NCBI GenBank assembly: GCA_947172415.1
Contig: OX359189.1
Location: 1,572,501 to 1,636,500, forward strand
Origin: Chondrosia reniformis
Taxonomy: Eukaryota; Porifera; Demospongiae; Chondrillida; Chondrillidae
Reading direction: 5' to 3'
Length of the DNA: 64,000 nt
Below are positions 34,037 to 62,690 of this stretch, one piece after another. Each line of letters begins with the position of its first letter. The first letter of the stretch is position 1. A program made the translations under genes and the position numbers. The notes under the pieces are model-generated. The model was not told the DNA's origin. It did no database searches and was given only the letters and a program-made list of their open reading frames with translations.

Positions 34037-37000
34037 AAATGTTTTTATTATGGCAAGCTGTTGTCGTAAATATTTGTATGTTTATCTGTATGGAGTTTGC
34101 TTGAAGTTGTATCTCTATCTTCTCCTCCATTCCTCAATTCAATAAATCATTGCAATGGAACAACAGAAGAAAGTGAGTGTGTCTTTCATATGTAAATCCT
34201 AGATGTTAGTAATGTTGGATAGATTGTGCAGTAATTTAATAATCGGACATGTACTTTGTGAATGTGCCTCTGTCATGTTCCAGTTTAGTACAAAGATGTT
34301 TTTATAATGGCAAGCAATTTAATAATCGGACATATACTTTGTGAATGTGCCTCTGTCATGTTCCAGTTTAGTACAAAGATGTTTTTATTATGGCAAGCTG
34401 TTGTCGTAAATATTTGTATGTTTATCTGTATGGAGTTTGCTTGAAGTTGTATCTCTATCTTCTCCTCCATTCCTCAATTCAATAAATCATTGCAATGGAA
34501 CAGCAATAGGAAGTGAGTGTGTCTTTCATATGTAAATCCTAGATGTTAGCAATGTTGGATAGATTGTGCAGTAATTTAATATTCGGACATGTACTTTGTG
34601 AATGTGCCTCTGTCATGTTCCACTTTAGTACAAAGATGTTTTTATTATGGCAAGCTGTTGTCATAAATATTTGTATGTTTATCTGTAATGGAGTTTGCTT
34701 GAAGTTGTATCTCTGTCTTCTCCTCCATTCCTTAATTCAATAAATCATTGCAATGGAACAACAGAAGAAAGTGAGTGTGTCTTTCATATGTAATACCTTG
34801 ATGTTATCAATGTTAGATAGATTGTGCAGTAATTTAATAATCGGACATGTACTTTGTGAATGTGCCTCTGTCGTGTTCCAGTTTGGTATAAAGATGTTTT
34901 TATTATGGCAAGCTGTTGTTGTAAATATTTGTATGTTTATCTGTAATGGAGTTTGCTTGAAGTTGTATCTCTATCTTCTCCTCCATTCTTCAATTCAATA
35001 AATCATTGCAATGGAACAACAATAGGAAGTGAGTGTGTCTTTCATATGTAAATCCTAGATGTTAGCAATGTTGGATAGATTGTGCAGTAATTTAATAATC
35101 GGACATGTACTTTGTGAATGTGCCTCTGTCATGTTCCAGTTTAGTACAAAGATGTTTTTATAATGGCAAGCCGTTGTCGTAATATTTGTATGTTAATCTG
35201 TATGGAGTTTACTTGAAGTTGTATCTCTATCTTCTCCTCCATTCCTCAATTCAATAAATCATTGTAATGGAACAACAGTTTTACGTGAGTGTGTCTTTCA
35301 TATGTAAATCCTAGATGTTAGCAATGTTGGATAGATTGTACAATAATTTAATAATCGGACATGTACTTTGTGAATGTGCCTCTGTCATGTTCCAATTTGG
35401 TATAAAGATGTTTTTATTATGGCAAGCTGTTGTTGTAAATATTTGTATGTTTATCTGTAATGGAGTTTGCTTGAAGTTGTATCTCTATCTTCTCCTCCAT
35501 TCCTCAATTCAATAAATCATTGCAATGGATCAACAGGAGGAAGTGAGTGTGTCTTTCATATGTAAATCCTTGATGTTAGCAATGTTCTATAGATTGTGCA
35601 GTAATTTAATAATCAGACATGTACTTTGTGAATGTGCCTCTGTCATGTTCCAGTTTGGTATAAAGATGTTTTTATTATGGCAAGCTGTTGTTGTAAATAT
35701 TTGTATGTTTATCTGTATGGAGTTTGCTTGAAGTTGTATCTCTATCTTCTCCTTCATTCTTCAATTCAATAAATCATTGCAATGGAACAACAGTTTTACG
35801 TGAGTGTGTCTTTCATATGTAAATCCTTGATGTTAGCAATGTTCTATAGATTGTGCAGTAATTTAATAATCAGACATGTACTTTGTGAATGTGCCTCTGT
35901 CATGTTCCAGTTTGGTATAAAGATGTTTTTATTATGGCAAGCTGTTGTTGTAAATATTTGTATGTTTATCTGTATGGAGTTTGCTTGAAGTTGTATCTCT
36001 ATCTTCTCCTCCATTCTTCAATTCAATAAATCATTGCAATGGAACAACAGAAGCAAGTGAGTGTGTCTTTCATATTTAAATCCTAGATGTTAGCAATGTT
36101 GGATAGATTGTACAGTAATTTAATAATCGGACATGTACTTTGTGAATGTGCCTCTGTCATGTTCCAGTTTAGTACAAAGATGTTTTTATTGTGGCAAGCT
36201 GTTGTCGTAAATATTTGTATGTTTATCTGTATGGAGTTTGCTTGAAGTTGTATCTCTATCTTCTCCATTCCTCAATTCAATAAATCATTGCAATGGAACA
36301 ACAGAAGAAAGTGAGTGTGTCTTTCATATGTAAATCCTAGATGTTAGCAATGTTGGATAGATTGTGCAGTAATTTAATAATCGGACATGTACTTTGTGAA
36401 TGTGCCTCCGTCATGTTCCAGTTTGGTATAAAGATGTTTTTATTATGGCAAGCCGTTGTTGTAAATATTTGTATGTTAATCTGAATGGAGTTTGCTTGAA
36501 GTTGTATCTCTGTCTTCTCCTCCATTCCTTAATTCAATAAATCATTGCAATGGAACAACAGTTTCACGTGAGTGTGTCTTTAATATGTAAATCCTAGATG
36601 TTAGCAATGTTCTATAGATTGTGCAGTAATTTAATAATCGGACATGTACTTTGTGAATGTGCCTCTGTCATGTTCCAGTTTGGTATAAAGATGTTTTTAT
36701 TATGGCAAGCTGTTGTTGTAAATATTTGTATGTTAATCTGTATGGAGTTTGCTTGAAGTTGTATCTCTGTCTTCTCCTCCATTCCTTAATTCAATAAATC
36801 ATTGCAATGGAACAACAGTTTTACGTGAGTGTGTCTTTCATATGTAAATCCTAGATGTTAGCAATGTTGGATAGATTGTGCAGTAATTTAATAATCGGAC
36901 ATGTACTTTGTGAATGTGCCTCTGTCATGTTCCAGTTTGGTATAAAGATGTTTTTATTATGGCAAGCTGTTGTCGTAAATATTTGTATGTTTATCTGTAA

Positions 37001-39271
37001 TGGAGTTTGCTTGAAGTTGTATCTCTATCTTCTCCTCCATTCTTCAATTCAATAAATCATTGCAATGGAACAACAGAAGGAAGTGAGTGTGTCTTTCATA
37101 TGTAAATCCTAGATGTTAGCAATATTGGATAGATTGTGCAGTAATTTAATAATCGGACATGTACTTTGTGAATGTGCCTCTGTCATGTTCCAGTTTGGTA
37201 TAAAGATGTTTTTATTATGACAAGCTGTTGTTGTAAATATTTGTATGTTTATCTGTATGGAGTTTGCTTGAAGTTGTATCTCTGTCTTCTCCTCCATTCC
37301 TTAATTCAATAAATCATTGCAATGGAACAACAGTTTTACGTGAGTGTGTCTTTCATATGTAAATCCTAGATGTTAGCAATGTTCTATAGATTGTGCAGTA
37401 ATTTAATAATCGGACATGTACTTTGTGAATGTGCCTCTGTCATGCTCCAGTTTGGTATAAAGATGTTTTTATAATGGCAAGCCGTTGTCGTAATGTTTGT
37501 ATGTTAATCTGTATGGAGTTTACTTGAAGTTGTATCTCTATCTTCTCCTCCATTCCTCAATTCAATAAATCATTGCAATGGAACAACAGAAGGAAGTGAG
37601 TGTGTCTTTCATATGTAATACCTTGATGTTAGCAATGTTGGATAGATTGTGCAGTAATTTAATAATCGGACATGTACTTTGTGAATGTGCCTCTGTCATG
37701 TTCCAGTTTGGTATAAAGATGTTTTTATAATGGCAAGCCGTTGTCGTAATATTTGTATGTTAATCTGTATGGAGTTTACTTGAAGTTGTATCTCTATCTT
37801 CTCCTCCATTCCTTAATTCAATAAATCATTGCAATGGAACAACAGGTTTACGTGAGTGTGTCTTTCATATGTAAATCCTAGATGTTAGCAATGTTGGATA
37901 GATTGTGCAGTAATTTAATAATCGGACATGTACTTTGTGAATGTGCCTCTGTCATGTTCCAGTTTGGTATAAAGATGTTTTTATAATGGCAAGCCGTTGT
38001 CGTAATATTTGTATGTTAATCTGTATGGAGTTTACTTGAAGTTGTATCTCTATCTTCTCCTCCATTCCTTAATTCAATAAATCATTGCAATGGAACAACA
38101 GGTTTACGTGAGTGTGTCTTTCATATGTAAATCCTAGATGTTAGCAATGTTGGATAGATTGTGCAGTAATTTAATAATCGGACATGTACTTTGTGAATGT
38201 GCCTCTGTCATGTTCCAGTTTGGTATAAAGATGTTTTTATTATGGCAAGCTGTTGTTGTAAATATTTGTATGTTTATCTGTAATGGAGTTTGCTTGAAGT
38301 TGTATCTCTATCTTCTCCTCCATTCTTCAATTCAATAAATCATTGCAATGGAACAACAGAAGGAAGTGAGTGTGTCTTTCATATGTAAATCCTAGATGTT
38401 AGCAATATTGGATAGATTGTGCAGTAATTTAATAATCGGACATGTACTTTGTGAATGTGCCTCTGTCATGTTCCAGTTTGGTATAAAGATGTTTTTATTA
38501 TGGCAAGTTGTTGTTGTAAATATTTGTATGTTTATCTGTATGGAGTTTGCTTGAAGTTGTATCTCTGTCTTCTCCTCCATTCCTTAATTCAATAAATCAT
38601 TGCAATGGAACAACAGTTTTACGTGAGTGTGTCTTTCATATGTAAATCCTAGATGTTAGCAATGTTAGATAGATTGTGCAGTAATTTAATAATCGGACAT
38701 GTACTTTGTGAATGTGCCTCTGTCATGTTCCAGTTTGGTATAAAGATGTTTTTATAATGGCAAGCCGTTGTCGTAATGTTTGTATGTTAATCTGTATGGA
38801 GTTTACTTGAAGTTGTATCTCTATCTTCTCCTCCATTCCTCAATTCAATAAATCATTGCAATGGAACAACAGAAGGAAGTGAGTGTGTCTTTCATATGTA
38901 ATACCTTGATGTTAGCAATGTTGGATAGATTGTGCAGTAATTTAATAATCGGACATGTACTTTGTGAATGTGCCTCTGTCATGCTCCAGTTTGGCATAAA
39001 GATGTTTTTATTATGGCAAGCTGTTGTTGTAAATATTTATATGTTTATCTGTATGGAGTTTGCTTGAAGTTGTATCTCTGTCTTCTCCTCCATTCTTCAA
39101 TTCAATAAATCATTGCAATGGAACAACAATAGGAAGTGAGTGTGTCTTTCATATGTAATACCTTGATGTTAGCAATGTTGGATAGATTGTGCAGTAATTT
39201 AATAATCGGACATGTACTTTGTGAATGTGCCTCTGTCATGTTCCAGTTTGGTATAAAGATGTTTTTTATAT
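34037..39271. repeat. satellite array, about 257-bp unit, about 20 copies
   Basis: Units share ATTCAATAAATCATTGCAAT, GTGAGTGTGTCTTTCATATG, GATTGTGCAGTAATTTAATA and AAGATGTTTTTATTATGGCA, with a few percent difference. The array fills most of the NLR-1 intron 33305-39345. Small open frames inside the units, such as MFQFGIKMFLLWQ, recur because the unit recurs; no protein is proposed. Each unit carries an AATAAA and an AG-N6-GTGAGT splice-like motif. First and last copies are partial. Confidence 0.92.
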
Positions 39272-39345
39272 GGCATGTGTTTCTGTATTAATGGAGTTGC
39301 TTTCCACATCATTAACTTAATGGATGACTGTACATTTTCTTATAG

Positions 39346-41300: not shown

Positions 41301-41558
41301 GTGAGTGGTTTCTAGTATAGTTATAACTTCTACTAATATGTTTGTCAGTGTCCAGTACATGTACGTACACACATACTTGACAGATAATAAGCATTTTCTA
41401 CTTGACTTTGTTATTACAGAGAATACAATACGAATGTCAGGGTGACTACTGTATATACTGTACTCTCTGATTTAGAGGTGTTTCCTATGGATGGTACTTG
41501 TGATGTTTTGTTGCTATGAAACTTTATTTTAAACTGTTTATTATTTATTCTTTTGTAG

Positions 41559-42399
41559 GACCCTCACAGCCACACCCACCAGGACCCTCACAGCCACACC
41601 TACCAGGACACTCACAGCCACACCTACCAGGACACTCACAGCCACACCTACCAGGACCCTCACAGCCACACCTACCAGGACCCTCACAGCCACACCTACC
41701 AGGACCCTCACAGCCACACCTACCAGGACCCTCACAGCCACACCTACCAGGACCCTCACAGCCACACCTACCAGGACACTCACAGCCACACCTACCAGGA
41801 CCCTCACAGCCACACCTACCAGGACACTCACAGCCACACCTACCAGGACCCTCACAGCCACACCTACCAGGACCCTCACAGCCACACCCACCAGGACCCT
41901 CACAGCCACACCCACCAGGACCCTCACAGCCACACCCACCAGGACCCTCACAGCCACACCTACCAGGACCCTCACAGCCACACCCACCAGGACCCTCACA
42001 GCCACACCTACCAGGACCCTCACAGTCACACCTACCAGGCCCCTTACAGCCACACCTACCAGGCCCCTTACAGCCACACCTACCAGGACCCTCACAGCCA
42101 CACCCACCAGGACCCTCACAGCCACACCTACCAGGACCCTCACAGCCACACCCACCAGGACCCTCACAGCCACACCCACCAGGACCCTCACAGCCACACC
42201 CACCAGGACCCTCACAGCCACACCTACCAGGACCCTCACAGCCACACCTACCAGGACCCTCACAGCCACACCTACCAGGACCCTCACAGCCACACCTACC
42301 AGGACCCTAAAAGCCACACCTACCAGGACCCTCACAGCCACACCTACCAGGACCCTCACAGCCACGCCTACCAGGACCCTCACAGCCACACCTACCAGG
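41559..42399 (+). repeat. 24-bp minisatellite, about 35 units; coding tail of NLR-1
   Basis: Units of CAGGACCCTCACAGCCACAC plus CTAC. The acceptor at 41558 enters the frame that reads SQPHLPGP repeatedly for about 250 residues until TAA at 42308-42310, created by a change in one unit (CCCTAAAAGCC instead of CCCTCACAGCC). The array continues about 90 bp beyond as noncoding. All frames but few are open because 24 is divisible by three. Similar tails end NLR-2. Confidence 0.88.
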
Positions 42400-42717
42400 A
42401 TGTTCTGAGTTTGTGTTTTTGAGAAAACATAAATATCTTCATTTTTGTTAGTTTATAGTTTATAAAAATACTTAATTTAGTCCAATCTTTTTATTTCATT
42501 GTTATGCATGTCTCTCTCTTTTATAAAATTTACCAGTACATATATTAGGACCATTCAAGATCTATAGCAGAACTCAAAGCTATGAATATCGCTCATAATT
42601 TGACTCTATATGGTTCTCATAAAGTGAACTTTGGTTTGGTTTGGTTATATTTAACTCAATTGTACTCATGAGTGGGAGGGGTTAATGCCTCCTTTGGCCG
42701 AAAAAATGGCCGCCCTA
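42400..42717. other. spacer between NLR-1 tail and fold-back element
   Basis: 318 bp of AT-rich sequence with nothing recognised, except that AAAAAATGGCCGCCCTATAT just left of the insertion resembles the inner TIR end AAAAATGGCCGATATAT. Confidence 0.5.
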
Positions 42718-42726
42718 TATTTGATG
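42718..42726. repeat. 9-bp target-site duplication, left
   Basis: TATTTGATG here and again at 49288-49296, directly outside the terminal inverted repeats at 42727 and 49287. Confidence 0.85.
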
Positions 42727-42788
42727 ACAAGCCATTAGAGAGAGGAAGTTAGCATCTTACGTAATACTAATAAAAATGGCCGATATAT
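42727..42788 (+). repeat. left 62-bp terminal inverted repeat
   Basis: Starts ACAAGCCATTAGAGAGAGGA and ends AATGGCCGATATAT. It is the reverse complement of 49226-49287 apart from two visible substitutions. Confidence 0.9.
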
Positions 42789-42827
42789 AAGTGAGCATGT
42801 ATATGTAATGTAGATACCGTAGATGTT

Positions 42828-43766
42828 GTAGAATTGGTAGAATTAGTAGATACTGTAGATACTGTAGATTCGGTAGATACTGTAGATTTGGTAGATACTG
42901 TAGAATTGGTAGATGATGTAGATGTTGTAGAATTGATAGATACTGTAGAATTGGTAGATACTGTAGATGTTGTAGAATTGGTAGATGTTGTAGAATTGGT
43001 AGATACTGTAGATTCGGTAGATACTGTAGATTTGGTAGATACTGTAGATGCTGTAGAATTGGTAGATACTGTAGATGTTGTAGAATTGTTAGATTCTGTA
43101 GATACTGTAGATGTTGTAGAATTGGTAGATACTGTAGATTCGGTAGATGCTGTAGATGTTGTAGAATTGGTAGATGTTGTAGAATTGGTAGATACTGTAG
43201 ATTCAGTAGATACTGTAGATTTGGTAGATACTGTAGATGCTGTAGAATTGGTAGATACTGTAGATGTTGTAGAATTGTTAGATTCTGTAGATACTGTAGA
43301 TGTTGTAGAATTGGTAGATACTGTAGATTCGGTAGATGCTGTAGATGTTGTAGAATTGGTAGATGTTGTAGAATTGGTAGATACTGTAGATTCGGTAGAT
43401 ACTGTAGATGTTGTAGAATTGGTAGATACTGTAGATTCGGTAGATACTGTAGATTTGGTAGATACTGTAGATGTTGTAGAATTGGTAGATACTGTAGATA
43501 CTGTAGATGTTGTAGAATTGGTAGATTCTGTAGATACTGTAGAATTTGTAGAATTGGTAGATACTGTAGATGTTGTAGAAATGGTAGATTCTGTAGATAC
43601 TGTAGAATTTGTAGAACTGGTAGATACTGTAGATTTGGTAGATACTGTAGATACTGTAGATGCTGTAGAATTGGTAGATACTGTAGATGTTGTAGAATTG
43701 GTAGATTCTGTAGATACTGTAGATGTTGTAGAATTGGTAGATACTGTAGATTCGGTAGATACTGTA
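42828..43766 (+). repeat. left arm minisatellite, 9-bp units
   Basis: Runs of GTAGATACT, GTAGATGTT, GTAGAATTG, GTAGATTCG and GTAGATTTG in mixed order. Because the unit is 9 bp, a spurious frame of Val-Asp-Thr type stays open throughout. Higher-order blocks of about 190 bp are duplicated (for example 43000-43190 and 43190-43380). Confidence 0.93.
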
Positions 43767-43777
43767 TCTTATGTCAG

Positions 43778-46078
43778 CCATTTCAAGTCATCAGGCCACT
43801 ATCCACAGCACCACTGAAGAGGATGATTCTGGCACTAATGGACTGCACCGGACACAATGCCTGTGCAGCTCTGATAGCTGTAGCAGCAGGTGCACTCACG
43901 CTGCATTACGAAACTATTAGGGAGGTACTATCCAACTTTCCAGTTCCTGTATTCTATGGCCCACCAGGTACAGGAAAGACTACAACTTTAAGATGTGTGA
44001 TGGCTACACTAGGTGCTTCACAACACATATACAGTAAAGTGACAAGTGCTTCAATACGCACTACACTGTCACAGTCCAGTGTCCCCGTGGGAATTGATGA
44101 CCCCAGCTCAAAGAAGGAGATTGAGGAGATTGTGGTGCAGCTCTACAATGGCGAAGCAGTATCCACTGTCACTCATGGAATGCAAATCCCCAAGGCAGGG
44201 TTAATTTTGACAAGCAATTTCCCCCTAAATTCTTCTCCAAGGTGTGTTATATTACCATGCAGTCCATCAATCATCTGGTAATCACACGTATGTGTATTGA
44301 ATATGTAGGATAAGAAATATAAGATTGTATATAAACTTTTGATGAACTTAATGATAATATGCACCATACCTATATATATATATATACTGTCATTGTTCAT
44401 TTTCTATATACATATATATACACCTCAATGTACATGCAGGAGTGCTACAAGATGTCTCTTGATACCGTTTGATGCACCTTCCATATCAGCCAAGATAACC
44501 AGGCATTTCAAGCTCAGCCAGTGTCAGCCTCAAGCATCGGGAGGCCTTGCATATTTAATTAGCCTCGGGACATTATTTCAAGAAGAAGGAATGCAACAAA
44601 TGGACAACAGTATAATTCCTGAGTTAGAAAGTGTTTTCCCGGTTGAATGCTTCCACAGAATCCTGCCTCAGTATGCAGCACTGAAGTGGTTCTGTGATAA
44701 GGTATGTAATTTACCTATATATGCTACATGATGAACATATTGAATATAATATATGTATATGTACATATGTATGCATGCATATGGATGCATGCTTAAGTAT
44801 ATCTTTGTATATATACATGTAATACATTAATTACAGATTGTGGAGGACCTACAATTGTCACAATATAAGGAGGAGGTAGACCAATTCTTTGCCACAAAAA
44901 TTGCAAATACGATACAACTGTATCAAATGGAACCAACGTTAACACCAGTAATAAGTGAATGCCAAATGCCAATGGACACCGGCCACAACTACATAGAGCA
45001 GTATGCACAAGAAGTGCTACTATGGACAGGAACCCGATCAAGGAGTGAAATTTTGCAATGCCTGAAATTTCAGCCCAAGACTAATCAATTTATGTTTGTT
45101 TCAACTGAAATACCAGTCGATCCTACGACAGTAGCAATGTTACAGAAGGCTGCTGATCCTAAGAGAAATAATCCCCTTTGTTTTAAAGGAACTGGGCGAC
45201 AATTCCTCTCAAGAAAAGCAGCCATGAAGATCCCTCCTGTTACTGAGGTGAATTTATATTCTTTATAGTAATGCCATGTGTACATACAAATACAAATATA
45301 TAGTTACTGTAGTTTTCACTATACTGGTATATATAGCATCAATTATATAGCATTTGTGTTTTATAGGCCCAAAGGTAGCTATTTATTTTTAGTAGTGACA
45401 TTAAAATTTGTCATCTTCAATACTTTAGATTGGAACAGGGAAGCCCGAGTGCACCACAAAAAAGAGGTGCATAGTGGTGCATAAGTCATGTCTTGGTGAT
45501 GAGCTTGCAGAAGCATTGCAATCAGGTTGGCAGCTTAATAGCAGATAAACGTATAGGTATATATATGGGACACTTATTAAATAATTTTGTATTTTGCGAT
45601 TCAGTTTGCTCAGCTCCCAAAGCATCAGCTGCAAAAGATAAAAACAAGGACACAGTAGGGAATACTGACATGAACAAGGACACTGTAGGGAATACTGACG
45701 TGAACAAGGACACTGTAGGGAATACTGACGTGAACAAGGACACTGTAGGGAATACTGACGTGAACAAGGACACAGCAGGGAATACTGATGTGGACAAGGA
45801 CACAGTAGGGAATACTGACGTGAACAAGGACACAGTAGGGAATACTGACGTGAACAAGGACACAGCAGGGAATACTGACGTGAACAAGGACACAGCAGGG
45901 AATACTGACGTGAACAAGGACACAGTAGGGAATACTGACGTGAACAAGGACACTGTAGGGAATACTGACGTGAACAAGGACACAGTAGGGAATACTGACG
46001 TGAACAAGGACACAGTAGGGAATACTGATGTGGACACAATCTCCAAAAGAAAAAGAAAGTTAACACGAAAAAATATAA
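43778..46078 (+). CDS. P-loop ATPase, SF3/DUF927-like (phage or plasmid helicase type), inside the fold-back element
   Basis: Exons 43778-44241, 44440-44701, 44837-45247, 45429-45525 and 45614-46078 join in phase. Translation may begin at ATG 43823 or in an unseen upstream exon. Walker A is YGPPGTGKTTTL. The acidic VPVGIDDPSSKKEIEE is a likely Walker B region. GLILTSNFPLN followed by RCLLIPFDAPS resembles the sensor Asn and Arg-finger zone of SF3/DUF927 helicase ATPases. Later exons have no recognised domain. The last exon encodes about thirteen NTDVNKDTVG repeats and a basic KRKRKLTRK, a possible nuclear signal. Function is unknown: a replication or transposition helicase of the element, or a captured host gene. 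The ATPase family call rests on motifs only. Confidence 0.6.
45642..46033 (+). repeat. 30-bp coding minisatellite in ATPase last exon
   Basis: About 13 units of GACGTGAACAAGGACACAGT plus AGGGAATACT encode NTDVNKDTVG-type decapeptides in the frame continuing from the upstream exon. Confidence 0.9.
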
Positions 46079-46125
46079 GTATGTACATAATAGAATAAGG
46101 ATTCCTTATAACTGCGTCGAACTTA

Positions 46126-46201
46126 TCTTTGGGATGGTACATCCTTCGACTTTTGAGCGTTTAAAAACGCTCAAAAGTCGAAGGATGTACCATCCCAAAG
46201 A
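46126..46201. repeat. perfect hairpin, 37-bp arms, 2-bp loop
   Basis: TCTTTGGGATGGTACATCC... pairs fully with ...GGATGTACCATCCCAAAGA around GAGCGTTTAAAAACGCTC. It lies between the ATPase last exon and the right arm. A diverged relative occurs at 57077-57203 with the same leading AATAAGGATTCCTT, which suggests a MITE family. Confidence 0.92.
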
Positions 46202-46633
46202 GAAGTATGTACATATTATTACATGTATATGCTACAACATGTGATTTAAATGCATATTTATATTAGTAGAATTTACTGCAAAGTGAACAAGAAGCAAGAT
46301 TAAAGTGGCAGAATTCAGTAAAGAACTTTGCTTTGGAGATACAATTCTAAAGTAAAATTTGACTTTTTTCTTTATTTATGTAATAACTTTTAAATTTAAT
46401 GTTCATTAATTCTTTTATTACAAAATATATATAACCATAATAATAATCATAAAATATTCTTTTATTATATAGCATGTTTTTAATTACATTTATATGAAAT
46501 TCTAAAATACAATTACACTTTATAGGGTCCCGCATAATCTCATTACAATATTATATAAATTAAATATTACAATATATGTGCAGATCTATAGAGTCACTCA
46601 TCAAAAGTACATGCATGCATCAAGTTTTCTACC

Positions 46634-49224
46634 AATTCTACAACATCTACATTATCTACCGAATCTACAACATCTACATTATCTACTAATTCTACAGCAT
46701 CTACCGAATCTACAGTATCTACCGAATCTACAACATCTACCGAATCTACAGCTAGTATCTACCAATTCTACAACATCTACCGAATCTACAGTATCTACCA
46801 ATTCAACAACATCTACATTATCTACCAATTCTACAGCAACTACCGAATCTACAGTATCTACCAAATCTACAGCATCTACATTATCTACCGAATCTACAGT
46901 ATCTACCAATTCTACAACATCTACCGAATCTAGAGAATCTACCAATTCTACAGCATTTACCGAATCTACAGTATCTACCAATTCTACAACATCTACATTA
47001 TCTACCAATTGTACAGTATCTACCGAATCTACAGTATCTACCAATTCTACAGCATCTACCGAATCTACAGTATCTACCAATTCTACAACATCTACAGTAT
47101 CTACCAATTCTACAGCATCTACAGTATCTACCAAATCTACAGAATCTACAGTATCTACAGAATCTACCAATTCTACAACATCTACAGTATCTACCAATTC
47201 TACAGCATCTACAGTATCTACCAAATCTACAGTATCTACCAATTCTACAACATCTACCAATTCTACAACATCTACAGTATCTACCAATTCTACAGTATCT
47301 ATCAATTCTACAACATCTACATCATCTACCAATTCTACAGCATCTACCGAATCTACAGTATCTACCAATTCTACAACATCTACAGTATCTACCAATTCTA
47401 CAACATCTACATTATCTACTAATTCTACAGCATCTACCGAATCTACAGTATCTACCAATTCTACAACATCTACAGTATCTAACAATTCTACAACATCTAC
47501 AGTATCTATCAATTCTACAGCATCTACAGTATCTACCAAATCTACAGAATCTACAGTATCTACCAATTCTACAACATCTACCAATTCTACAACATCTACA
47601 TGTCTACCAATTCTACAGTATCTATCAATTCTACAACATCTACCAATTCTACAGTATCTACCGAATCTACAGTATCTACCAATTCTACAACATCTACAGT
47701 ATCTACCAATTCTACAACATCTACAGTATTTACCAATTCTACAAATTCTACAGTATCTACCAATTCTACAACATCTACAGTATCTACCAATTCTACAGTA
47801 TCTACATTATCTACCAATTCTACAGCATCTACCGAATCTACAGTATCTACCAATTCTACATCTACAACATCTACATTATCTACTGAATCTACAGTATCTA
47901 CATTATCTACCAATTCTACAGCATCTACCGAATCTACAAAATCTACAGTATCTACCAATTCTACAGCATCTACCGAATCTACAGTATCTACCAATTCTAC
48001 AACATCTACAGTATCTACCAATTCTACAGCATCTACAGTATCTACCAATTCTACAACATCTACAGTATCTACCAATTCTACAACATCTACAGTATCTACA
48101 AAATCTACAGTATCTACCAATTCTACAGCATCTACCGAATCTACAGTATCTACCAATTCTACAACATCTACAGTATCTACCAATTCTACAGCATCTACAG
48201 TATCTACCAATTCTACAACATCTACAGTATACCAATTCTACAACATCTACAGTATCTACAAAATCTACAGTATCTACCAATTCTACAGCATCTACCGAAT
48301 CTACAGTATCTACCAATTCTACAGCATCTACAGTATCTACCAATTCTACAACATCTACAGTATCTACCAATTCTACAGCATCTACCGAATCTACAGTATC
48401 TACCAATTCTACATCTACAACATCTACATTATCTACTGAATCTACAGTATCTACATTATCTACCAATTCTACAGCATCTACCGAATCTACAGTATCTACC
48501 AATTCTACAGCATCTACAGTATCTACCAATTCTACAACATCTACAGTATCTACCAATTCTACAGCATCTACCGAATCTACAGTATCTACCAATTCTACAT
48601 CTACAACATCTACATTATCTACTGAATCTACAGTATCTACATTATCTACCAATTCTACAGCATCTACCGAATCTACAGTATCTACCAATTCTACAACATC
48701 TACAGTATCTACCAATTCTACAGCATCTACAGTATCTACCAATTCTACAACATCTACAGTATCTACCAATTCTACAACATCTACAGTATCTACAAAATCT
48801 ACAGTATCTACCAATTCTACAGCATCTACCGAATCTACAAATTCTACAACATCTACAGTATCTACCAATTCTACAGCATCTACAGTATCTACCAATTCTA
48901 CAACATCTACAGTATCTACCAATTCTACAACATCTACAGTATCTACAAAATCTACAGTATCTACCAATTCTACAGCATCTACCGAATCTACAGTATCTAC
49001 CAATTCTACAGCATCTACAGTATCTACCAATTCTACAACATCTACAGTATCTACCAATTCTACAGCATCTACCGAATCTACAGTATCTACCAATTCTACA
49101 ACATCTACCGAATCTACCGAATCGACAGTATCTACCAATTCTACAACATCTACCGAATCTACAGTATCTACCAAATCTACAACATCTATATAGTATCTAC
49201 CGAATCTACAGCATCCATTATCTA
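46634..49224 (-). repeat. right arm minisatellite, 9-bp units, inverted relative to the left arm
   Basis: The complement of the left arm motif: CTACCAATT, CTACAGTAT, CTACAACAT, CTACCGAAT and CTACAGCAT in mixed order for about 2.6 kb. Long internal duplications are visible (for example 48290-48480 and 48470-48660). Open frames of Ser-Thr type here are by-products of the 9-bp period. Confidence 0.93.
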
Positions 49225-49225
49225 C

Positions 49226-49287
49226 ATATATCGGCCATTTTTAATAGTATTACGTAAGATGCTAACTTCCTCTCTCTAATGGCTAGT
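49226..49287 (-). repeat. right 62-bp terminal inverted repeat
   Basis: ATATATCGGCCATTTTTAAT through CTAATGGCTAGT, the reverse complement of 42727-42788. It is followed by the second TATTTGATG. Confidence 0.9.
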
Positions 49288-49296
49288 TATTTGATG

Positions 49297-59400: not shown

Positions 59401-62400
59401 AGTAAATCCTTATACATACGTCTCCTTTGTACAGATCACAGATTATGAATTGCAGTCACTTTGTAAGATTGAAACATTCCTTTCAGCCAATGGATCACTT
59501 AGGACATTGAACTGGACTATCAAGTGCACTACTTCAGGGAGACTCCTACATTTAGCATTTGTTGTACTGAGTAGTAATAAACAAACTACTTTGGATTTAA
59601 GGGTTCTAAGTGAGTTCTTATTGATATTTCATTCTAGCAGTTATGAGCAAGTACATCTCATCACAAATTTTGCATGTGATATCTTTAGAGCCAATAGCAT
59701 GTACAGATGTGGAAATGTTTTTACAGCGTACTGAACATGAAAATATTAAACCAGAAATCTTTCAATCATAATAAAACATTAACAGTTGGTAATATAAATC
59801 ACAAGTAATGTAATGATTAGTTGCCAAATTCTGTTCACCCTAAGCATACGTACATTTGTATTAATCGGTAGCTTTTTGGGACACCAAAGACGCCCCCTAT
59901 ATTGTTTTCACTTTTAGGTTTTTATATATACATATGTTTGTAATCATATGTATACAACCAAAATAAAAACATTTAAAAATGATGTTGAAGTAGGGATGAC
60001 TGTGCTGCAACAGTGATAAGTTAAGTTTCAGTATGCCACTTCTGTATGGTTAGCCTTACCATGCGTATGATCACTGTCTTGTTTCTATACTTTTTCCAGA
60101 TCTGCTTGTCACTGTTGCAGCACGGTCATCCCTACTTCAACATCATTTTTATTTTACTCGTATTCTCCCTTTTTTCTGATTAATATATATTACGTACTTG
60201 TTTTGTGAGTTTTCTTGGCGATAATTCGAAATAATGTCGCAATCAAGAGAAAAAACAGAATTTCTTATCAAAAATTGCAGCCGAGAAGACCACAATTTTG
60301 ATTCTTCTCAAATAACACTCTTCATGTAGAGCGCTTTCAAATATAGGGTTGCCCATTCCCTAGTTCGGAAAAAATGACAATTTAGTACCTGTATGTATCT
60401 GCATAAGTTCGCATGTTAGCGCTAGCTCATTTGAAAATGATGAAGAAAAAATCCAATTAATACTCACCCATTTGACTTGCTCTATGTGCACCTATTGATG
60501 GGTTGCCCTGATAGGGATGCAAGGCCTCTGCAGGGGAGCAGTCTTGGCATGACCCAAGTGATGCCATCAAACGGGCCCCCTGTACTTGGTTCAAAGCTGA
60601 CCCCCATCCCTTACTATCCATACTCGCAATATATCTGTCAACAAAATGGCGGATGCTTAGGCTCTCTCTTCGGTTTTCTAAGCTTTAATTAGCTTTTTCT
60701 TCACTTGCGCCACAAATTGAACCAATGATAAGTCTTTCAAAACCATTGTTAATAACACTAGACCAACGTAAATCCTGCGCAAAAGGTTTTACTGGATTGC
60801 TGAAATGTTCCATGTTATTAAAGCTGACAATTAAGAACCTGTAAGTAGTTTGAGTTTGGGGTGTCCAGGCACCCCACGAGTTTTTAACTCGAAATACTAT
60901 ATGGAAACTGATTCAATTAGGATAAAGCTAAAATTCCATGGTATTATCTGTGTTTGGGCTAGCCACTACAAGTATTGCAAATCATATGTACATATATGGA
61001 AAATCCAAGTTTGAATTTATGTAGTATTGTATGTACTTACATGCATATTCTCTGGTAGAACATTTACAGTATCTCTCTGTCCATGAAGTGTTAAAAATTA
61101 TATACTGTATATCTTTTTACATGTATATTGTGTGTAGGTCCAAATCATGTCTTTACATGTACCCTAATGGGTGACAGATGTACTCTTAACTGTGACCTCC
61201 ATCCTGACCTGTGGGTGAAGGTACTACGTGCTCTTGAAATGAGAGAAGTGAAACATTTAACTATGACATTGTGGACCCCTTCTGATTATCTTGTGAGTTA
61301 CACAGGTTTAAGCATCCACAACAATGTAGTTCAATCACTGTTGGTTATGCAACATCAACAGTCTCTGCTGATAAGAGCACACACATATATACATATGTAG
61401 GTTTCACAGTACATTCTCATATATCTTATGTGTCTATGTTACACGTTACTAATTTCTTCTTTTTCATGTTTTTTGCTGACAGTCACATGACAGTCAGTTT
61501 GAGGAAATTAAAGATATTTGGAAGGATTTTAATTGTAAATACATAACTTTGTATATTTGCCACATTGAATCACTGGTAAGTAGTTAATTTGTTCATAAAT
61601 GTTACTTACGTATGCCTATTTACTTGTATACAAACTTGTATACTTGTACGTATGTACATATATGCGAATTATTCATCCATTGTTGTACTTAGGGGATTAA
61701 CATTGTATTTCAAAATTTAGTAAGACATACATATGTGTATAGACCATTTTTTCATGATTTATATATATATTGCTATTACTGTAAAGTATTGTCATACTGT
61801 CCTGTGTTAGTTAATTAGAAACATCATTTGTGCTATCTTGGAGGGAGTAGCAGTGAACAGCAATGACATGAACTTCAGTGTCACTGTACCTGATTCAATT
61901 ACATGCGTGAGGTCTGCCCTATCAGATGGTGTTGCTGAAATATTCAACTGGAATGAGAAGATGTGTTCCTTGAAATCTCTTCATATTAGACACTCATTAC
62001 GTGAGTAGTTTTCTATGTGTAGCTATATCTAATATTGAAGGCATAATGATTATTTGAGTTTGGAGACATTTCAACTGTAGATATTTATCAGCTATTGGTG
62101 AATATTTTTTATTGTTATGAAACTAGGTTTTACTTTTGCTAGTAACTTTCTATGTAGGGTCTTCACAGCCACACCTACCAGAACCCTCACAGCCACACCT
62201 ACCAGGACCCTCACAGCCACACCTACCAGGACCCTCACAGCCACACCTACCAGAACCCTCACAGCCACACCTACCAGAACCCTCACAGCCACACCTACCA
62301 GGACCCTTACAGCCACACCTACCAGGACCCTTACAGCCACACCTACCAGGACCCTTACAGCCACACCTACCAGGACCCTTACAGCTACACCTACCAGGAC

Positions 62401-62600
62401 CCTCACAGCCACACCTACCAGGACCCTCACAGCCACACCTACCAGGACCCTCACAGCCACACCTACCAGGACCCTCACAGCCACACCTACCAGGACCCTC
62501 ACAGCCACACCTACCAGGACCCTCACAGCCACACCTACCAGGACCCTTACAGCCACACCTACCAGGACCCTCACAGCCACACCTACCAGGACCCTCATAG
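50431..62600 (+). CDS. NLR-2: DEATH-like / NACHT / LRR-type receptor
   Basis: Predicted cytosolic innate sensor, apparently intact in its main exons. Exons by phase: 50431-50542 (acidic Ser/Glu start, [18 protein letters not shown]), 51487-51771 (DEATH-like), 52457-52548 (linker), 53059-54748 (NACHT), then small repeat exons 54918-55093, 55922-56102, 56504-56649, 57351-57531, 57624-57668, 58674-58873, 59435-59609, 61138-61292, 61483-61575, 61811-62000, and the Pro/His-rich tail from 62158. The tail stops at TAG 62598-62600, made by a C-to-T change in one repeat unit. The architecture matches sponge NLRs, with NACHT flanked by a death-fold N-terminus and a C-terminal sensor. NLR-1 is its damaged paralogue, with a CARD-like N-terminus and five fewer sensor exons. 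Confidence 0.8.
51090..51283 (+). mobile_element. fragment of non-LTR (LINE) reverse transcriptase
   Basis: An open frame in NLR-2 intron 1 reads [20 protein letters not shown], then [19 protein letters not shown]. This is the typical N-terminal part of LINE reverse transcriptase domains (KSxGxDxIPPxxLK ... FPxxWKxA). It is about 65 residues, with no downstream domains, so it is a dead fragment. Confidence 0.8.
51487..51771 (+). CDS. NLR-2 DEATH-like domain exon
   Basis: A 95-codon exon with six-helix death-fold spacing: [18 protein letters not shown], then [20 protein letters not shown] and [18 protein letters not shown]. The Trp-containing TWKEFCKTL helix and LANEIE end are typical of DEATH domains in signalling proteins. 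It joins exon 1 in phase 1 and the linker exon in phase 1. Confidence 0.75.
52112..52263 (+). pseudogene. GC-rich coding fragment, probably mobile-element remnant
   Basis: An abrupt GC-rich patch in an AT-rich intron reads [20 protein letters not shown] and then [17 protein letters not shown] before a stop at about 52263. The combination GRR-(x)n-TGE-(x)n-QRGNAA is reminiscent of the end of a repeated mobile-element protein, but I cannot name the family. It is isolated in NLR-2 intron 2, with sharply different base composition. Confidence 0.5.
53059..54748 (+). CDS. NLR-2 NACHT exon, intact
   Basis: An uninterrupted 1690-nt exon. It begins [20 protein letters not shown]. Walker A is [10 protein letters not shown], Walker B is [13 protein letters not shown], and the sensor-like segment is [14 protein letters not shown]. 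Distal winged-helix-like sequence includes [15 protein letters not shown] and [18 protein letters not shown], a conserved NLR helical motif. The exon ends with LRR-like [12 protein letters not shown] before the donor at 54749. It is near identical to 29660-31316 in long blocks, broken by divergent patches such as 53510-53570. Confidence 0.92.
54918..59609 (+). CDS. NLR-2 sensor-region exons
   Basis: Seven short exons (54918-55093, 55922-56102, 56504-56649, 57351-57531, 57624-57668, 58674-58873, 59435-59609) in alternating phases. They repeat two themes. Theme one is a strand-helix unit such as [20 protein letters not shown] or [20 protein letters not shown]. Theme two is a TCTL-type unit such as [20 protein letters not shown] and [20 protein letters not shown]. 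This exon-wise repetition indicates expansion by exon duplication. The folds are probably divergent leucine-rich repeats. The tiny 45-nt exon is the least certain. Confidence 0.65.
55387..55536 (+). mobile_element. transposase N-terminal fragment (HTH type)
   Basis: In NLR-2 intron 5 an open frame reads [20 protein letters not shown] and [15 protein letters not shown] before a stop. The basic stretch followed by a TxExRAxIGxYAxExGN helix is typical of the DNA-binding start of pogo/CENP-B-like DDE transposases. No catalytic part follows. Confidence 0.6.
55784..55827. repeat. perfect hairpin, 19-bp arms
   Basis: TATAACTATAATAAGAGGC and its reverse complement flank a 6-base loop (CAAAGT). It may be a MITE remnant near the transposase fragment. 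Confidence 0.85.
57056..57203. repeat. MITE-like copy related to the hairpin at 46.1 kb
   Basis: AATAAGGATTCCTTCTAACT then TATCTTTTGGATGATTC pairs imperfectly with GAAGGATGAACCATCCAAAA at 57180-57203. The centre holds GAAGAAGACCCCCAGGGAC. The leading block also precedes the hairpin at 46126. Confidence 0.7.
57669..58673. other. NLR-2 intron
   Basis: 1 kb without a recognised gene. It contains the palindrome at 58387-58429 and a patch of GCGAG/CTCGAT-rich sequence near 57840-57910. Confidence 0.5.
58387..58429. repeat. perfect palindrome, 20-bp arms, 3-bp loop
   Basis: TACAATCATACGTATTACTT, loop ATG, then the exact reverse complement. It lies in an NLR-2 intron. Confidence 0.9.
59975..60155. 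mobile_element. MITE-like element with about 40-bp inverted ends
   Basis: The left end AAAAATGATGTTGAAGTAGG GATGAC, continuing GTGCTGCAACAGTGA, pairs with the right end ending GTCATCCCTACTTCAACATC. The ends differ at one or two bases. The 100-bp interior has no gene. It lies in the NLR-2 intron 59610-61137. Confidence 0.75.
60156..61137. other. remainder of NLR-2 intron
   Basis: No gene is supported. A short GC-richer stretch at 60480-60660 includes an open frame ([20 protein letters not shown]) that I could not relate to any family. Confidence 0.45.
61138..62000 (+). CDS. NLR-2 C-terminal exons shared with NLR-1
   Basis: Exons 61138-61292 ([20 protein letters not shown]), 61483-61575 ([20 protein letters not shown]) and 61811-62000 ([20 protein letters not shown], then [20 protein letters not shown]). 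Each has a one-to-one match in NLR-1 at 39346, 40774 and 41087, with the same intron phases. The NLR-1 version of the third exon is eight codons longer. Confidence 0.72.
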
Positions 62601-62690
62601 CCACACCTACCAGGACCCTCACAGCCACACCCACCAGGACCCTCACAGTCACACCTACCAGGACATTAACCAGAATCCTCATAACCACGC
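62158..62690 (+). repeat. 24-bp minisatellite, about 22 units; coding tail of NLR-2
   Basis: Same unit as at 41559. The acceptor at 62157 enters the frame reading [16 protein letters not shown] for about 147 residues, to TAG at 62598-62600 (CTCATAGCC instead of CTCACAGCC). Several units read LQPHLPGP from a TTACAG variant. Confidence 0.88.

Follow-up and report, generated by a model that had tools for sequence, protein, structure and literature searches.

The element occupies positions 42727-49287 of the window, by which we mean the whole 64,000-nucleotide stretch of Chondrosia reniformis DNA that was analysed (C1:1572501-1636500); the genome searched comprised 117 Mb in 15 contigs. It is 6,561 bp long, lies at C1:1615227-1621787 and sits inside a common dispersed repeat. 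The 9-bp sequence TATTTGATG flanks it as a target duplication at 42718-42726 and 49288-49296, and at this base composition such a match of 9 bases at a set boundary would arise by chance with a probability of about 6.5e-6. The left terminus of 62 bp (42727-42788, plus strand), which begins ACAAGCCATTAGAGAG, returns on the minus strand at the right end (49226-49287) with 60 of its 62 positions identical. Each terminus is followed inwards by a minisatellite arm of 9-bp GTAGANNNN units, on the plus strand at 42809-43766 and inverted, on the minus strand, at 46628-49215. The spacing from one GTAGA start to the next is a multiple of nine in all 102 cases in the left arm and in 267 of 275 in the right. 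When aligned, the left arm and the reverse complement of the right are 84% identical over 1,064 columns, which would allow a single strand to fold onto itself. The initial annotation had reported these duplications, inverted termini with two mismatches and opposed arms, and had read the duplication and arms as a complete fold-back unit resembling Rehavkus and Mutator elements; that description was borne out.

Other repeats were noted in the window. An array of a 257-bp satellite (34316-39275, 19 copies, 94% matches) ends approximately 3.4 kb left of the element. One 24-bp unit forms two arrays, at 41557-42400 (35 copies) and 62163-62664 (21 copies), the first of which is open in several reading frames.

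The exons of an ATPase gene lie between the arms on the plus strand, as the initial annotation had proposed. Exon 1 (43772-44241, its start placed by homology to P0004 and P0005) is a single open exon containing the Walker A stretch GPPGTGKTT, IDDPSS and TSNFP. Its 5' part, which encodes the N-terminal domain, is lost in the window copy, so that the left arm abuts the exon; P0004 and P0005 both have an extra N-terminal domain. Exon 2 (44440-44701) is continuous with exon 1 in P0001 and is followed by exon 3 (44837-45247). P0001, a protein from another source, reads through exons 1-3, which supports the splicing. The splice sites of exon 4 (45429-45525), the end of exon 5 (45605-46078) and the start of the last exon (46270-46355) were assigned by inspection. 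Exon 5 includes a 30-bp coding minisatellite of 13 copies (45643-46036), and the last exon ends ...SKELCFGDTILK followed by a stop. A palindromic insert of about 86 bp (46121-46206) is absent from L010, a second copy of the element. The last exon of the window copy has an additional in-frame stop which is not found in L010; L010 has a stop at the beginning of its own truncated exon 1. A relative of the gene on C14 (L037, 8381-8878) ends ...VPNFTKELCFG after its coding repeat, comparable to AEFSKELCFGDTILK in the window gene, and in these two genes the ATPase tail is conserved behind a variable minisatellite.

Copies of the element and their insertion sites

The genome was searched for the terminus as the initial annotation had suggested. 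The inner terminal pattern, with up to 3 mismatches, was found at 11 sites, compared with 2 for a backwards control. Ten of these sites are the paired ends of five elements, namely the window copy, L009 (C3), L010 (C1), L011 (C9) and L012 (C14), and one, on C10, is an unpaired end (L013). All five copies have minisatellite arms at both ends, and an arm together with its terminus measures about 0.6 to 2.7 kb. The interiors are co-linear, with 93-99% identity among the main blocks listed, and the deletion differs from copy to copy. The test of whether other copies keep the 9-bp duplication, suggested in the initial annotation, gave a mixed result. Perfect duplications flank the window copy, L009 (CGAACCCGG) and L011 (ATGGAGAAG); the flanks of L010 have only CGAAC in common and those of L012 nothing.

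Uninterrupted versions are known for two insertion sites, that of the window element and that of L009 and L010. For the former, the flanks were joined around one TATTTGATG and used as a query, which gave 524 candidates at first look. Forty rows were scored, for span across the junction and not for the 9 bases row by row, and 39 of the 40 spanned it at 81-85% identity; the remaining row came from the right flank of the element itself. In those copies of the window-site repeat that were examined on C12, the bases at the 9-bp position differ and are fewer. Inverted copies of the same repeat lie on both sides of the C12 sister copy described below (L032, 2590-2757 and 8085-8249). L009 and L010 are inserted at the identical point of a related repeat, an uninterrupted version of which at C8:2354301-2354400 is 88% identical over 99 of the 107 query bases. 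The left flank of L010 is altered, and the position common to it and L009 may reflect either a shared insertion or a site preference. The span 42727-49287 is shown to be one unit that inserted with a 9-bp duplication.

Transposase remnants and the sister family

Each of the five copies was scanned for a PHD finger. There is no match in the window copy, and there is one in each of the other four. In L010 the strand that does not carry the ATPase has a frame whose last part is a PHD finger scoring over the Pfam cut-off (2.1e-6), and PHD remnants are present in L009, L011 and L012. In L012, which has the same termini, the C-terminal half of a transposase of Mutator type, with SWIM and PHD fingers, survives opposite the ATPase. 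The open frame there is 306 codons long and reads ...NMFTEAFHRLLKVVYMDSKANRRIDHLL... and then CTCSCPDALLHHTVCKHVHAV, with the PHD finger coming after in another frame. The CTCSCPDALLHHTVCKHVHAV stretch is a SWIM-like finger under the Pfam cut-off (0.018), and the NMFTEAFHRLLKVVYMDSKANRRIDHLL stretch presumably holds the catalytic E of Mutator transposases.

The transposase region of L012 is 79-82% identical at the DNA level to a fragment on C6. The catalytic exon was found only in that fragment, and in no copy with the exact termini of the window element. The C6 exon matches the ZSWIM RNase-H-like family (PF21056) at 4.4e-6 and 27.1 bits, with a cut-off of 27.2, and MULE at 0.0024 and 18.7 bits, with a cut-off of 27.6. 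P0006 was the sole match of the joined transposase query, and its ZSWIM domain is over the cut-off (4e-8). Taken together, the SWIM and PHD ends, the C6 exon scores and P0006 are best read as placing the family with the Mutator-type elements. A remnant of another Mutator-type transposase with a PHD-like finger, distinct from the family of the window element, lies at C9:4169811-4170420 (L053).

The initial annotation had seen no transposase, which is right for the window copy and not for its sisters, with their SWIM-like and PHD ends. As these sisters have the same termini, deletion accounts for what is missing in the window. Its suggestion of a new type of element lacking a transposase falls on the same observation, namely that the end of a Mutator-type transposase survives in copies with this terminus.

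The window element and its same-terminus copies are referred to as family A. A diverged sister family, family B, is represented on C5 and C12 by one terminus each, ACAAGCCATTAAGCAGAGGAAATTAGCAT and ACAAGCCATTAGATAGAGGAAATTAGCAT, respectively, in which the first 11 bases, ACAAGCCATTA, are those of family A. The opposite end of neither was found, which marks both as decayed copies. Family B has GTAGA units in 9-bp phase, with the other four bases (the spacers) different from those of family A. The GTAGA spacing is a multiple of 9 in 4/4 and 13/15 cases on C5 and in 8/9 on C12, and two stretches contain 16 and 10 exact motifs, compared with at most 4 and 3 in 1,000 single-base shuffles. The ATPase is present in both, with its 3' end pointing at an arm as in family A, and on C12 transposase sequence adjoins it head-to-head on the opposite strand.

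Rough Nei-Gojobori dN/dS values, which partly reflect time after decay, were 0.18 (101 codons), 0.47 (35), 0.19 (73) and 0.25 (90) for the ATPase against C5/C12, dS being 0.59-0.92 in the three pieces with dN/dS of 0.18-0.25. Trial rows in other frames (two of exon 2 and two of the transposase) were dropped. Within family A, where every comparison involved just 2-5 changes, the ATPase values were 0.17, 0.40 and 0, the last from two silent changes only. Between family A and C6 the transposase gave 0.29 (67 codons), 0.30 (60), 0.46 for the PHD part (93) and 0.12 (25), and against C12 the PHD part gave 0.56 (53 codons). The low ATPase values suggest that selection maintained the gene as the families diverged. 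On these sequence comparisons we favour a partner gene retained for a long time over one recently captured, and the earlier idea of a captured helicase gene is weakened by the ATPase of the sister family, its equivalent layout and its low dN/dS.

Affinities of the ATPase

The P-loop and an acidic pair, ie G229, G232, K235, T236 and D275-D276 of P0005, are invariant in nine sequences. The Pfam AAA family scores 24.3 bits, over its cut-off of 21.2, and the fold of a low-confidence structure model matches AAA+, if weakly. The initial annotation had described the gene as SF3/DUF927-like. For SF3, Pfam gives only PF00910 (RNA_helicase), under the cut-off. DUF927 (PF06048) is also under its cut-off of 22.6 bits, at 13.5 for P0003 and 14.9 for a distant relative, and a search of the genome with the DUF927 family returned no matches.

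Profile comparison brings the two closer. Scanning viral contigs with a pattern from the ATPase family gave 8 loci, of which 7 encode versions of one long protein; five versions match L064 at 705-775 of 776 residues, and L059 is cut by the end of its contig. L064, the only one scanned by Pfam, matches DUF927 at 1.6e-27. The remaining locus, L063, encodes a different protein, RecD-like by reading. The plasmid matches were three records, including a primase/polymerase at 3e-5 and, weakly, an annotated DUF927 protein at 0.5. Against three of these viral proteins, the Pfam-scanned one included, hhalign gave 93.9% over 106 columns, and with two plasmid proteins (found via P0003) added it gave 99.1% over 250 columns, scores which are not fully independent as the viral and plasmid proteins were all found with the ATPase family as query. 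We conclude that the ATPase shares common descent with DUF927-type helicase domains at a level below Pfam membership, so the DUF927 part of the initial annotation stands as relationship and not as assignment.

A first protein search yielded 5 relatives, which cover 38-75% of the query and there show 53-77% identity with the window protein. The profile search yielded 15 proteins, among them P0008, the genome's own exon, and P0010, which is near-identical to the distant copy on C9. Distant ATPase loci, 27-36% identical, are present on C9, C13, C5, C14 and C2, and a Mutator-type transposase of this kind was not found in the 10-20 kb around each of the five. A sixth, weak locus was seen within a 3-kb locus only. 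At L039 (C9:2180090), L041 (C5:4548899) and L043 (C13:2581302) a distant ATPase relative has long blocks of 89-98% DNA identity, and this relative is likely to be another mobile unit, its ends not found. On C6 there is no recognisable ATPase in the 2 kb upstream of the catalytic exon. The bond between ATPase and transposase is likely to be old in the lineage; given the C6 fragment and the five distant ATPase loci that have no such transposase in the stretches covered, it is not universal.

Origin and relationships of the element

The window element is a real, well-formed member of a known superfamily. The explanation we consider probable is a Rehavkus-like Mutator fold-back which has been internally deleted and is served by a transposase in trans, derived from a two-gene parent encoding a transposase and a DUF927-related AAA+ ATPase. 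No locus among those examined (the five copies, C5, C12 and C6) has both genes intact, so this parent is pieced together from partial copies. It would have had two head-to-head genes between GTAGA arms, the 3' end of each next to a different arm, and its transposase, of Mutator type, would have had SWIM and PHD fingers at its end. The transposase would bind the termini, and perhaps also the repeated 9-bp units, and movement would be by cut-and-paste. The ATPase would act as a working partner, most likely to unwind or remodel DNA while the element transposes or is copied. The window copy and its sisters would have been moved by transposase made elsewhere, and none of those examined seems capable of producing it today. 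That the two families have the GTAGA core in common suits a protein-binding site in 9-bp phase and could also be plain descent; the transposase or the ATPase could be the protein that binds it.

Other explanations share parts of this evidence. The ATPase may be a passenger without a role, picked up by a Mutator fold-back in a single event that predates the split of families A and B, and in keeping with this are the extra or captured genes that Mutator elements often carry (PMC6446971 and PMC6431247, in the parts available), the C6 transposase with no ATPase in 2 kb upstream, and the related ATPases that occur apart from any recognised transposase of this kind. We think it rather unlikely, as a passenger fits poorly with dN/dS as low as 0.18-0.25 in three of the four ATPase pieces, at such dS, and with the same orientation towards the arm in both families. 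A replicon-like transposon, in which the element's DUF927-type initiator helicase would bind the GTAGA units as iterons in 9-bp phase, load on the arms and copy or unwind the folded DNA while the transposase cuts and joins, is a more doubtful proposal still; it is worth considering because the DUF927-type Cch is related to SaPIbov1 Rep, and the Rep helicases of SaPIs seem to bind to short repeats in their origins (PMC7581432, in the part available).

An element that moves by its ATPase alone would explain why the window copy shows only that gene, but the PHD and SWIM transposase ends in same-terminus copies and 9-bp duplications that fit the Mutator group make this very improbable, and L012 and L010 largely refute it. 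Least credible, to the point of being hardly conceivable, are separate smaller insertions at the two termini, with the span not one unit. The unmatched 9-bp flanks of L010 and L012 would agree with such a history, but it is refuted by a two-ended layout repeated five times with co-linear interiors, by perfect duplications in three copies and by the uninterrupted sites.

By its traits, the nearest named group to the Rehavkus-like two-gene family that we prefer is Rehavkus, an outgroup in the Mutator superfamily with 9-bp duplications, minisatellite-containing terminal repeats and a PHD-finger transposase; the available part of the survey gives it one ORF, hosts restricted to arthropods and annelids, and a small number of known members (PMC6446971). 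The duplication, the minisatellite by the termini and the PHD finger of the transposase are common to both as Rehavkus is there described. The window family differs from that description in a putative second gene, for the ATPase, in arms of approximately 0.6-2.7 kb at both ends and in a SWIM-like finger. Given two-gene remnants in L010, L012 and C12 as opposed to one ORF, it is filed as Rehavkus-like and not as a member. Tetris, according to the part of its report available, has the same fold-back shape, duplications of 8-10 bp and repeats inside its ends, but has no ORFs and was not traced to a transposase source, whereas the parent genes of the window family are traceable (PMC4079207). Tm1, as far as the accessible account goes, is a non-coding Mutator fold-back which is similar in shape, in its 8-10 bp duplications and in its end repeats. 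In the elements with mudrB, mutB and vanB/vanC a Mutator transposase is accompanied by an accessory gene, as in the proposed parent, but within the available part of that survey no accessory protein is named as an ATPase (PMC6446971). The words helicase and ATPase are absent from the main text of two Mutator surveys, one of them that same article, and the pairing of a Mutator-type transposase with a DUF927-related ATPase was not met in the literature searched. As far as that literature goes, the second gene is new for the Rehavkus-like group.

The ATPase core aligns by profile with DUF927 proteins (the SCC Cch and SaPIbov1 Rep helicases and long phage and plasmid proteins). Unlike these, the window ATPase is eukaryotic, spliced, paired with a Mutator-type transposase and under the DUF927 cut-off. 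MuB and TnsC are AAA+ partners of bacterial transposases. IstB, too, is the dedicated AAA+ ATPase of a transposase, a pairing like that in the proposed parent, as judged from the accessible portion of the source (PMC11208146). A specific sequence link between the window ATPase and IstB, MuB or TnsC was not found, and the likeness is one of layout.

Many bacterial transposases depend on a dedicated AAA+ ATPase (PMC11208146, in the part available). Were the replicon-like reading true, the element would be a DNA transposon of a eukaryote that brings along an origin for loading its helicase. If the two-gene explanation is true, a phage- or plasmid-type helicase gene kept under selection in the Mutator/Rehavkus lineage would be a eukaryotic case of a transposase with an AAA+ partner. 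The puzzling minisatellite arms would then gain a suggested role as protein-binding arrays, and Rehavkus-like elements would extend beyond the one-ORF form.
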